NCBI RefSeq assembly: GCF_000473265.1
Contig: NZ_KI421511.1
Span: 2,827,560 to 2,891,559, forward strand
From: Amycolatopsis thermoflava N1165
GTDB taxonomy: Bacteria; Actinomycetota; Actinomycetes; Mycobacteriales; Pseudonocardiaceae
Direction of reading: 5' to 3'
Length of the DNA: 64,000 nt
Positions 3,786 to 62,608 of the stretch are shown piece by piece (within the stretch, counting starts at the first letter, position 1; each line of letters starts with the position of its first letter). The notes beneath the pieces are model-generated. The model was not told the DNA's origin and searched no databases. It saw only the letters and a program-made list of their open reading frames with translations. A program made the position numbers and the translations under genes.

Positions 3786-3827
3786 CCCCTTACACCGTCG
3801 TCCGGATGCCGTCAGGTCCCCGCCCGC

Positions 3828-3875
3828 CCGCTGCGGACCTGGTGCCGGGGAAGGTGCACCAGGGCCGCTGAGCGG
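3828..3875 (-). ncRNA. structured leader element upstream of rsmH (mraW-motif candidate)
   Basis: On the minus strand this segment folds into a compound hairpin. An 8-bp apical stem CCTGGTGC/GCACCAGG (3838-3845 with 3856-3863) has a 10-nt loop. It continues after a single mismatch into a 4-bp helix (3833-3836 with 3865-3868) and, past a 2-nt bulge, a 5-bp helix (3828-3832 with 3871-3875). It lies about 40 bases before the rsmH start. Actinobacteria are known to carry an 'mraW' RNA motif in this position; membership here is inferred from position and structure, not from a covariance search. Confidence 0.5.
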
Positions 3876-3928
3876 ACAGAGGCCTCACGACATCCGTCGC
3901 CGGATCCCGCCCCCACTTGCGTTTCGCC

Positions 3929-18596: not shown

Positions 18597-19422
18597 CACG
18601 GTCTTCCTGGCCGGCAAGAAGGTCGAGAAGGCCCTCGCCGGCCGGGTGCTGACGCGCACCGACTTCCGGCACCCGGCGCTGGCCACCACCGACCTGGCCG
18701 GCTCGACGGTGCTCGGCGTGCGCACGGTGGGCAAGCACCTGTTCTTCCGCTTCTCGCCGGACCTGAGCCTGCACAGCCACCTGAAGATGGACGGCTCGTG
18801 GGAGATCACCCGGCCCGGTTCCCGCTGGCGGCACCCGGCGCACCACGCGCGGGTCGTGCTGGAGGCCGAGGGGGTGCAGGTCGTCGGGTTCCGCGTGCAC
18901 GACCTGGAACTGCTGCCCACCGCCGAGGAGTCCCGCCTGGTCGGCCACCTCGGGCCGGACCTGCTCGATCCACAGTGGAGCGACGAGCACGAGGCCCGCG
19001 CGGTGGCGGCGCTGACGAGCGAACCGGGCCGGGAGCTCGGGCTCGCGTTGCTCGACCAGCGCGTGATGGCCGGGGTCGGCAACCTCTACAAGTGCGAGAT
19101 CTGCTTCCTGCTCGGCGTGACGCCGTGGACACCGGTGTCCGAATTGGACGCAGCGAAGGTGGTCCGGCTGGCGCGGAAGCTGTTGCTGGCCAACGCCTGG
19201 CGGCACGAGCAGAGCACCACAGGCGACCTCGCCCGCGGCCGCCGGAACTGGGTGTACGAGCGGACCAGGCAGGGCTGCTTCCGGTGCGGGGGCCGGCTCC
19301 GGGTCGAAGACCAGGGCCGGGACCCTCACGACGTCCAGGCGCGCCCCACCTGGTTCTGCCCGCGCTGCCAGCGCGGGCCCTCGCCTCAGCTGCGCAGCAG
19401 CTCGTTGAAGAACGTGCGGTAG
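18583..19422 (+). CDS. nei: Fpg/Nei-family DNA glycosylase (endonuclease VIII)
   Basis: 279-residue base-excision repair enzyme that removes oxidised pyrimidines and nicks the abasic site. It starts MPEGDTV, giving the catalytic N-terminal Pro2 and Glu3 after Met removal; the helix-two-turns-helix (LLDQRVMAGVGNLYKCEI) and a C-terminal zinc finger (CFRCGG and CPRCQ, CX2C pairs) are intact. MPEGDT rather than MPELPE places it with Nei. It overlaps parA by 14 bases and, tail to tail, the minus-strand gene at 19386 by 37 bases. Confidence 0.93.
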   Translation: MPEGDTVFLAGKKVEKALAGRVLTRTDFRHPALATTDLAGSTVLGVRTVGKHLFFRFSPDLSLHSHLKMDGSWEITRPGSRWRHPAHHARVVLEAEGVQVVGFRVHDLELLPTAEESRLVGHLGPDLLDPQWSDEHEARAVAALTSEPGRELGLALLDQRVMAGVGNLYKCEICFLLGVTPWTPVSELDAAKVVRLARKLLLANAWRHEQSTTGDLARGRRNWVYERTRQGCFRCGGRLRVEDQGRDPHDVQARPTWFCPRCQRGPSPQLRSSSLKNVR

Positions 19423-19901
19423 CGCCGCAGCGCCAGCCGCAGGTCCTCGGTGGCGGCCTCACCACGCTGCCACTGGGCCTCCAGCCCGTGCTTGTGGTCG
19501 GCGAAGGTCCGCGCGAGCGCCTGCATGACCTCGGCCACCAGCTGGTCGGCGTCCCGCAGCGTCCGCTGTGGATCGTCGACGAACGAGGTCTGCACCTCGC
19601 GCCAGCGGTCGCGGAACGCGCTGACCTGCTCGGGGCAGAACAGCTCGACCCGCTCCTCGCCATCGTCGTGCCGGGCGGCCGGTTCCTCGGTCACGCCCTG
19701 ACTCGCCGCGGCCTCGGCCGGCAGGGTGCGCCCGGCCGGCTGTTCGGCCATCGGCTGCGCGGGCGTCTCCTGCGACGCTGGATCCTGCTGCGCGACTGGA
19801 TCCTGCTGCGCGACTGGGTTTTCCCGCCGCGGTTCCCCGGTGCGGGGCGCCACCAGGTCGTCGGTGGCCGGGCCGCCGGCGGTGCGGTCCTCAGCGCGCA
19901 T
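19386..19901 (-). CDS. uncharacterised protein, soluble member of a tandem related pair
   Basis: 171 residues. Residues 1-85 are low-complexity and acidic/Gln-rich, with a duplicated VAQQDP encoded by an exact 18-bp repeat (19778-19813). The C-terminal 85 residues form a helical domain (FRDRWREVQTSFVDDPQ ... EDLRLALRRYRTFFNELL). That domain matches, block for block, the C-terminal domain of the gene directly upstream (19891-20460), so the two look like diverged duplicates. No transmembrane segment here. The 3' end overlaps nei and the 5' end overlaps its upstream partner by 11 bases. Confidence 0.8.
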   Translation of the reverse strand: MRAEDRTAGGPATDDLVAPRTGEPRRENPVAQQDPVAQQDPASQETPAQPMAEQPAGRTLPAEAAASQGVTEEPAARHDDGEERVELFCPEQVSAFRDRWREVQTSFVDDPQRTLRDADQLVAEVMQALARTFADHKHGLEAQWQRGEAATEDLRLALRRYRTFFNELLRS

Positions 19902-20460
19902 GGTGACGGTCCCCCTCCGGCCGCACGTCGGCGTCGCCGAGCAGGTCCTCGAACACCTGCCGGTAGTGGACCATCGCCTTGCGCAGGTCCTCGGTGGACG
20001 CCTCGGTCTGCTGGTGGCCCTGCGTGATGTCGTGGGCGCGGCGGTAGTGCTCGATCGTGCCGGCGTGCTCGACGGACAGGTCCCGGTGCTGCTGCTCGTA
20101 GCCCTCGGTCGGGTAGCCGCGCTCGGCCATCAGCGAGGTGAGCAGGCGGTCGGCCTCCAGGATGGCCCCGCCGGGCCGGTCGACGAACTGCTGCTGCACC
20201 AGCGACCACTGCTGCCGGTAGCGCTGGCGGGCGGTCTCCGGCAGCGGCCGGATGTCCAGCTCGCTGTGCCGCTTCTCCCGCTCGGCCAGGTCGCGCTCGG
20301 CGGCCCGCTTGCTCTTGCCACCCTCGACGGCCCGCTCGTACTCGGGCCCGAACCGCTCCTGCAGGCGCCTGCGCCGCACCTGGGCGCGGGCCAGCAGGGC
20401 GATCCCGAGGATCACCACGATCGCGACGACGACGATCAGAACGACCACGGACGTGGACAT
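19891..20460 (-). CDS. uncharacterised membrane-anchored protein, partner of 19386-19901
   Basis: 189 residues: one N-terminal transmembrane helix (VVVLIVVVAIVVILGIALL, residues 5-24), a basic charged linker (RRRRLQERFGPEYERAVEG ... AERDLAEREKRH), then the helical domain YRQQWSLVQQQFVDRPGGAI ... TEDLRKAMVHYRQVFEDLL shared with the downstream gene. Both carry the pattern (F/Y)R-x-x-W-x-x-VQ-x-x-FVD-x-P and a closing EDLR-x-(A/L)-x-x-YR-x-(F/V)F. ATG 20460 was chosen because the helix begins 4 residues later. Function unknown; a cytoplasmic domain tethered to the membrane that may heterodimerise with its soluble relative is a reasonable guess. Confidence 0.85.
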   Translation of the reverse strand: MSTSVVVLIVVVAIVVILGIALLARAQVRRRRLQERFGPEYERAVEGGKSKRAAERDLAEREKRHSELDIRPLPETARQRYRQQWSLVQQQFVDRPGGAILEADRLLTSLMAERGYPTEGYEQQHRDLSVEHAGTIEHYRRAHDITQGHQQTEASTEDLRKAMVHYRQVFEDLLGDADVRPEGDRHHAR

Positions 20461-20646
20461 CGCATTCTCTCCCGTTGGTGCGACCAGCCCCCCGGTCACC
20501 TGATCGGGTACACCTGCCCGGGTGGCTCGAAACGCGGCACCTCGGCATTGATCGATCCAGTGGGCGAGGCGGGGCGGAAGGAAAATTCCCGTCGGCGCCC
20601 CGCCGGGCGGGTGAGAACGACCACGCCCGCCTGCCCGGAAATGCAG

Positions 20647-20676
20647 TTGCCGCAGGGGCACCGGCACGCCTAGCGT
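20647..20676 (+). promoter_or_regulatory. candidate promoter for the mini-ORF element
   Basis: TTGCCG at 20647-20652 and TAGCGT at 20671-20676 are separated by 18 bases, close to the actinobacterial housekeeping consensus (TTGAC-N18-TAnnnT). The start point would fall near 20683, leaving a short leader before the AAAGGAGGTG Shine-Dalgarno at 20691. Confidence 0.5.
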
Positions 20677-20708
20677 TGCTGGTACACGGGAAAGGAGGTG
20701 GTCCAAAG

Positions 20709-20747
20709 TTGTGTAGCAACGGGACTCGTGAGGTGGCTGTCCGCTAG
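20709..20747 (+). CDS. 12-codon mini-ORF with an extended Shine-Dalgarno
   Basis: TTG start and TAG stop; the peptide reads MCSNGTREVAVR. It is preceded, with a 4-base spacer, by AAAGGAGGTGGTCC at 20691-20704, complementary at 13 of 14 positions to the 3' end of 16S rRNA, far longer than other ribosome sites in this window. The last third of the ORF forms the left arm of a 10-bp inverted repeat (20732-20791). It looks like a regulatory leader peptide or a translated small RNA; no amino-acid run typical of classical attenuators is present. A second short frame (ATG 20751 to TGA 20840) starts 3 bases after its stop. The next full gene starts 187 bases downstream. Confidence 0.5.
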   Translation: MCSNGTREVAVR

Positions 20748-20791
20748 CGGATGCCACACCCTGGACTGCTGGTGAATACCAGACAGCCACC
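20732..20791 (+). promoter_or_regulatory. long-range stem overlapping the mini-ORF
   Basis: GGTGGCTGTC (20732-20741) pairs perfectly with GACAGCCACC (20782-20791). The intervening 40 bases contain a smaller hairpin CTGGT-GAAT-ACCAG (20769-20782) and the self-complementary CGCTAGCG (20742-20749) around the mini-ORF stop. A ribosome finishing the mini-ORF would occupy the left arm, so translation and folding compete. Apart from this element the gene-free interval 20461-20934 shows nothing recognisable. Confidence 0.6.
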
Positions 20792-20934
20792 GCCCCCCGG
20801 CGTTTCCGAGCACTGGTCCGGCTCGGGCCCGAACGGCTGACGACGGTCGGGAGTCGCGCCGGGGGTTCCCCCCAATCCCCTAATTCGCCGGGAAACGCCC
20901 CCGAAGATCGTCCGGGGCGCGCTATCCTTCGCCG

Positions 20935-62488: not shown

Positions 62489-62608
62489 GCGTCCGAGGAA
62501 CGAGCCGGTCTTCGATCGAAGCCAACGGGACTCTCCCGTAAGCCACTACCGAGGACCGGCGTCCTTGCCCTCGAGCGCCTGCCCTTCCTCTTTCTTACTT
62601 CGTATGGA

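Follow-up and report, generated by a model that had tools for sequence, protein, structure and literature searches.

The 64,000-nucleotide stretch of Amycolatopsis thermoflava N1165 analysed here (the window) contains a member of the RNA family RF02471 (Ms_IGR-5), and comparison with its relatives leads to a new reading of how this known family works. Although classified as non-coding, this conserved RNA appears to be translated with no selection on its peptide, and it carries the whole complement of the 16S rRNA tail. The open frame, the full pairing with the 16S tail and the conserved fold together suggest that the RNA probably acts by ribosome entry. The family itself is already catalogued in Rfam, and the anatomy described below is the new part.

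Family membership and parts of the element

The window element belongs to RF02471: cmscan placed the family at 20684-20873(+) with 79.1 bits (E 8e-16), where the gathering cut-off is 45, and covered the model from end to end (positions 1-184 of 184). This was the single RF02471 match in its own genome. Rfam assigns the family the type 'Gene; sRNA' and, according to the passages cited, its transcript was validated by RNA-seq in S. lividans (PMC8079986), reported as an sRNA transcription unit in S. avermitilis (PMC8780764) and found to overlap an sRNA in M. smegmatis (PMC10454040). Literature passages naming Ms_IGR-5, RF02471 or M. smegmatis IGR-5 mention no mini-ORF, although the original description by Li et al. 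(PMC3527728) may do so. The element at the window locus is made up of the following parts.

20684..20873 (+): whole element, RF02471 Ms_IGR-5 (cmscan)
20647-20652 (+): -35-like TTGCCG, 18 nt from TAGCGT (letters)
20671..20676 (+): -10-like TAGCGT (position of TANNNT in relatives)
20685..20688 (+): P1 5' strand CACG, near the presumed RNA 5' end (compensatory changes with 20727-20730)
20689..20704 (+): GGAAAGGAGGTGGTCC, predicted complement of 16 nt of the 16S rRNA 3' tail, G-U allowed (pairing, predicted duplex energy)
20691-20704 (+): AAAGGAGGTGGTCC, the Shine-Dalgarno (SD) stretch named in an earlier note on this DNA (letters)
20709..20747 (+): mini-ORF MCSNGTREVAVR, UUG start, stop UAG (frame kept in 209/209 parsed elements)
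20722..20726 (+): GGACT in the ORF, candidate partner of the SD GUCC (P2) or, in a pseudoknot, of the loop of the 3' hairpin (its end pairs covary with that loop)
20727..20730 (+): P1 3' strand CGTG inside the ORF (covariation)
20732..20741 (+): P3 left arm GGTGGCTGTC inside the ORF (covariation, complementarity)
20774..20780 (+): GAATACC, recurrent motif ahead of the P3 right arm (variant motif in relatives)
20782..20791 (+): P3 right arm GACAGCCACC (covariation, complementarity)
20806..20826 (+): P4 hairpin, loop GGTCC 20815-20819 (NGTCC-loop hairpin in relatives)
20794..20865 (+): P5, GC-rich stem of 20794-20802 with 20857-20865 enclosing P4 (fold); perhaps a terminator, with a poor U tract

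A letter-by-letter check found every feature of the earlier note in its place, including the 12-codon, UUG-started frame 20709-20747 ending in TAG and the perfect 10-bp inverted repeat, with its left arm in the ORF and 40 nt between the arms. The inner hairpin CTGGT-GAAT-ACCAG described with this repeat exists in the window but is not general in 23 relatives compared by eye; the GAATACC variant AA[T/A/C][C/A/T]C[C/A/T] was present in 109/205 elements. As for the promoter-like TTGCCG-N18-TAGCGT, the letters hold and the placement of the -10 is fixed in relatives, whereas a simple sigma-70 consensus scan at the element, like a terminator scan, returned nothing. TANNNT stands at -23 or -22 from GGAGGTG in 146/209 elements, and within -31..-14 in 153/209 as against 11/197 for a control stretch. 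Comparison supports a conserved -10-like element that would put the RNA start near 20684.

The parsing expression was run on 217 loci and on the window; it fitted the window and 211 of the loci, which gave 209 distinct elements with the window's own included, 92 of them found through the covariance model (CM) and 117 through a pattern. The 98 CM loci were the best-scoring ones from the phylum, family and class surveys plus 20/40 further phylum-survey matches. Since the pattern fixes GGTCC, GGACC and GGAGGTG, constancy at these letters is forced in the 117 pattern-found elements. Six CM loci were missed by the expression (L030, L055, L057, L060, L063, L098); by eye, all keep the frame and four carry one extra codon. 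Elements whose best P3 run fell below five pairs (22/205) were retained in the counts, and the shuffle controls ignore shared ancestry.

The mini-ORF and its pairing with the 16S tail

The mini-ORF was open in 209/209 elements, with stops in 0/1536 codons in frame versus 14 and 164/1327 in the other frames; in the CM-found subset, which was not selected for frame, the figures were 0/592 versus 8 and 55/500. The frame runs over 12 (71 elements), 13 (17), 14 (98) or 15 codons (23). The spacing between the SD and GAGGTG varies over all values of 36 to 45, yet the start moves along so that the frame is kept. Allowed starts were canonical ones up to offset 18, or CTG/ATC/ATT/ATA/ACG at 12-17. A canonical start followed by an open frame through GAGGTG occurred in 125/209 elements in frame, versus 2 and 0 in the other frames; with near-cognates counted too, the numbers rose to 209 versus 26 and 1. 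The starts were UUG (63), CUG (60), AUG (42), GUG (20), AUC (11), ACG (7), AUU (3) and AUA (3), and the stops of the 209 elements UAG (151), UGA (39) and UAA (19). Near-cognate starts lie at offset 13 in 80/84 cases and canonical ones at 15-17 in 115/125. Offset 13 is in frame in 133 elements: all 80 that lack AUG, GUG or UUG carry CTG, ATC, ACG, ATT or ATA at this place, compared with only 6/53 of those with a canonical start, a contrast from which shared ancestry was not removed.

These patterns make it very probable that the mini-ORF is translated. In the passages cited, ribosome-protected reads are present on the M. abscessus and M. smegmatis homologues, with the caution that ribosome reads on sRNAs may be an artefact and need not mean translation (PMC4974804). 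The proposal in the earlier note of a translated regulatory RNA or ribosome-occupancy sensor fits the open frame, the compensatory changes in P1 and P3 and these published reads. Its suggestion of re-initiation at a second frame (ATG 20751 to TGA 20840) fared otherwise: an ATG within 12 nt after the stop was found in 7/205 elements, and the frame 20751-20840, not conserved in relatives, was dropped as part of the element.

The encoded peptide presents a different picture. Variable codons showed 127 synonymous versus 463 other differences, with 198/200/192 changes by codon position, and the corresponding counts in the other frames were 168/383 and 165/695, all from pairwise and hence non-independent comparisons. 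Because the frame is open in all elements and no synonymous bias is seen, selection seems to act on translation rather than on the peptide. The variable codons are AU-rich (GC 0.40 versus 0.685 downstream), and serine accounts for 301/909 of them (33%), as both AGY and UCN, an enrichment that may come from shared ancestry. The window peptide has no amino-acid run of a classical attenuator, as had been noted. A type I toxin was discarded on reading the peptide, which is short and hydrophilic.

Upstream of the frame, pairing with the 16S tail extends further than the near-complete anti-16S SD described earlier: the one mismatch reported there is a G-U pair, and the predicted pairing reaches 16 tail nucleotides. 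The sequence GGATCACCTCCTTTCT, which we take to be the 16S 3' end, occurs three times in the genome. Full 16-nt pairing with GGAUCACCUCCUUUCU, G-U counted, is possible in 198/209 elements and in 87/92 of those found by the CM, whereas among 492 background ORFs, roughly called on the fetched contigs, two reach 13, the maximum, and one reaches 12. The predicted energy of the tail duplex is -27.8 kcal/mol, whereas shorter SD strings come to about -9 to -12. Within the window, AAAGGAGGTGRTCC has a single exact site, and each of 11 further sites carries 3 mismatches. At offset 7, 84/92 CM-found elements have G; A would match the 16S better, and G pairs with the C of GGAC in P2. The ribosomal protein bS21, which according to the passage cited would hinder a long SD helix (PMC13009471), was found in 0/100 Actinomycetota genomes sampled and in 6/14 control genomes.

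Helices and pseudoknot around the frame

P1 joins the RNA 5' end to the codon before GAG. One of its pairs is C-G in 120 elements, A-U in 68 and G-C in 7, the next one A-U in 102, C-G in 74 and G-C in 22, and its three covarying pairs are all formed in 191/209 elements. On the tree, these pairs underwent 9, 7 and 6 two-sided changes (0-1 when slid) against 5, 5 and 9 breaks, and the CM-only subset gave z values of 9.6/9.3/8.4. For P3, two-sided changes numbered 9, 6, 5, 6 and 2 at five positions (0-2 when slid) and breaks 13, 9, 11, 7 and 13; its right arm was picked by complementarity, which favours pairing. Both P1 and P3 are thus putative helices supported by covariation, and they would tie up the second half of the frame. 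P2 is constant, with no two-sided change, so it is without such support. The fold of the window element had a z-score of -2.5, 3/200 shuffles being as good, and its lowest-energy form, computed by a method blind to pseudoknots, includes P2 and leaves P1 out. Four loci (L032, L038, L039, L049) have GGACC followed by UCGUG without the usual overlap, and a 5-bp P2 is possible there beside P1.

A 3' hairpin with an NGUCC loop (P4) was found at 199/211 loci. The same search of the 199 long-enough regions retrieved 191, versus 69-80 in five shuffles and 72 in reversed sequences, and ten other four-base cores gave 44-127, two of them overlapping the real motif. The hairpin lies more than 155 nt from GAGGTG in 8/197 elements, and these few distant ones may be wrong. 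The constancy of the GGAC/GUCC core, required by the search, proves nothing; the letters flanking GUCC were not used in the loop search. The flanks of the ORF GGAC and of the loop GUCC covary with z values of 11.1 and 9.6, compared with -1.0 and -1.2 in the adjacent registers; in the CM-only subset the values are 3.8/6.6, compared with 0.9/-1.4. The two ends are paired in 147 and 150 of 197 elements, and in 43 and 63 of the 86 found by the CM. On the tree they show 2 and 8 two-sided changes (0-2 when slid), outnumbered by 11 and 24 breaks, and the window's own ends are a G-G and a U-G. From this covariation, a long-range pairing of the ORF GGAC(N) with the P4 loop (N')GUCC appears likely. A further helix after P3 containing the stop codon gave a best z of 6.4, at the base after the stop (112/205 anchored elements), a weak signal, and the helix is therefore not claimed.

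The Rfam consensus structure of RF02471 has neither P1 nor the pseudoknot, both of which are proposed for the element here. The pairs of its 5' helix are kept in fractions of 0.38-1.00 of the 209 elements, several being mostly G-U in raw counts, and its 3' stem (P4/P5) is present in most. The findings suggest that the consensus structure and the coding status of RF02471 deserve revision.

Distribution, proposed mechanism and rival readings

RF02471 was detected in 70/396 genomes of the phylum, 35 of them above the cut-off, in 192/296 of the class and in 79/100 of the family, the own genome being included each time. The core pattern occurred in 111/396 phylum genomes and, by a count by eye, in about 28 for the reversed control, so some matches are due to chance. 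A pattern search of named contigs added at least 119 loci; the 80 titles among the matches listed are mostly Acidimicrobiia-type, Solirubrobacterales/Thermoleophilia-type or unclassified Actinomycetota MAGs, and three among them name other phyla (two Acidobacteria, one Chlamydiae) and are probably mislabelled. Phylum-survey matches outside the class scored 25-68 bits, so the Rfam model serves them poorly. Laxer filters again returned no RF02471 in 38 genomes chosen as non-hits, a result that does not prove absence; as it stands, the RNA is widespread but patchy. A mobile origin was set aside: no phage match was found, none of six IMG/VR pattern matches looked element-like by eye, and the single plasmid match lies on a record of 2.66 Mb, entered as a plasmid of Nocardia farcinica.

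On these grounds, we give an even chance to Ms_IGR-5 being a standalone mini-mRNA whose ligand is the initiating ribosome (30S/70S), the entry of which remodels the fold. In the free RNA, the GGAC codons would pair with the GUCC of the SD stretch (P2) and damp ribosome entry; in the alternative state, GGAC would pair with the P4 loop GUCC in a pseudoknot, leaving the tail-pairing stretch free. A ribosome would then bind very tightly and start slowly, at a near-cognate start or at one 10-12 nt after GGAGG, and by reading to the stop would open the pseudoknot, P1 and P3, so that the P4 loop and the right arm CAGYCACC become free. The regulated step would be ribosome entry and the choice between P2 and pseudoknot; the output, a conformational state or ribosome retention, would report initiation conditions. 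The peptide would be a by-product of translation, and the RNA would act in trans or by holding ribosomes.

That this amounts to a switch with the ribosome as its ligand we advance only tentatively. Rather doubtful is its widest form, a phylum-wide regulator that captures the 16S tail, switches between a hairpin that masks the SD and a pseudoknot, and converts initiation competence (such as IF3-dependent start stringency in elements starting with CUG, AUC, AUU, AUA or ACG) into an RNA state, the peptide being of no consequence. If the translation and the tail complement are confirmed, this would suggest that direct sensing of ribosomes through tail pairing is possible in a phylum seemingly without bS21. 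A promoter, a 190-nt RNA and four mutable pairings would in any case make a small test object for long SD helices and near-cognate starts in vivo.

The tail pairing could also serve a simpler role as a docking site or decoy for the 30S subunit, held by the 16-nt duplex, with the frame only letting bound ribosomes leave by terminating. This reading draws on the 198/209 elements with full pairing and on the predicted -27.8 kcal/mol (about -9 to -12 for shorter strings), as well as on a 2002 paper by Komarova which, by its title, reportedly found extended SDs to inhibit translation; we consider it unlikely, as it leaves the covarying P1, P3 and pseudoknot around the frame unexplained and would require a very abundant RNA. 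Alternatively, ribosomes might open the fold to free a seed, the P3 right arm or the P4 loop, for base-pairing with mRNAs in trans. The C-rich arm and the conserved loop would suit such an sRNA, as would the S. avermitilis transcription unit (PMC8780764) and the S. lividans transcript (PMC8079986) in the passages cited, yet the loop GUCC is already accounted for by cis pairing, and the odds stand well against it.

Readings centred on the next gene or on the peptide meet other difficulties. The earlier note offered a leader controlling GNAT-pyrD as one possibility; three genomes of the genus (L227-L229) do have these genes downstream in the same orientation, and the family's serine-rich variable codons (301/909) might recall an attenuator. 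However, pyrD homologues occur at 9/226 loci and GNAT at 5/226, the window's locus counted and many flanks spanning 0.4-1.5 kb; by Pfam names, both are found in L001, L069 and L227-L229, and pyrD alone in four more. Neighbours are clade-specific and often on the opposite strand, and no conserved regulated downstream gene was found, as would mark a cis leader-peptide attenuator. Because neighbours differ between clades, a general GNAT-pyrD leader role is rejected; there may be a local effect within the genus, and cis attenuation of the next gene as an account of the element is very improbable. That the element encodes a functional micropeptide with the ending GT(L/R)EV(A/S/T)GR is hardly credible either: the C-terminal block of this peptide recurs, as GTLEVAGR, in 38/209 elements, but coincides with RNA helices, the codons of the block also building P1, the pseudoknot and P3, while the other codons lack synonymous bias. 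Selection on amino acids, as would mark a dual-function sRNA, was not detected, the block being confounded by the helices.

The proposed ribosome-sensing mini-mRNA has partial parallels, here as described in the passages cited. Extended SDs with non-canonical starts are reported to work in S. aureus with some 10-30% of the efficiency of AUG (PMC13009471); its infC, cvfC1 and ccpN resemble the element in long SD pairing and a near-cognate start, giving low, tunable initiation, but its genes encode proteins, whereas here the frame has 12-15 codons and belongs to a small structured RNA from a different phylum. The rpsU of Flavobacteria carries an extended SD and is translated by ribosomes that lack bS21 (PMC10931766), which likewise makes ribosome state the signal; that is cis control of a protein gene, and bS21 was found in none of the 100 Actinomycetota genomes sampled. 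The rancRNAs (PMC8938821) are also small RNAs acting on ribosomes, binding being putative here; unlike them, Ms_IGR-5 has a conserved frame, and its link to the ribosome is the published reads on homologues (PMC4974804).

Several further observations concern the surroundings of the element. Some relatives of this genome have an Fpg-like gene upstream and pyrD downstream. In loci of Thermoleophilia type, L171 and L205 among them, a long gyrase-A-like gene ends about 60 nt upstream of the element on the same strand, and several of these loci have an HNH-like gene downstream on the opposite strand (genes named by eye). In the window, the adjacent ORFs 19386-19901(-) and 19891-20463(-), neither of which passes a Pfam cut-off, look alike by eye and are possibly tandem paralogues. 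The window also holds two RNAs that Rfam classes as cis-regulatory, mraW at 3794-3901(-) with 63.5 bits and Actino-pnp at 62504-62560(-) with 67.2 bits.
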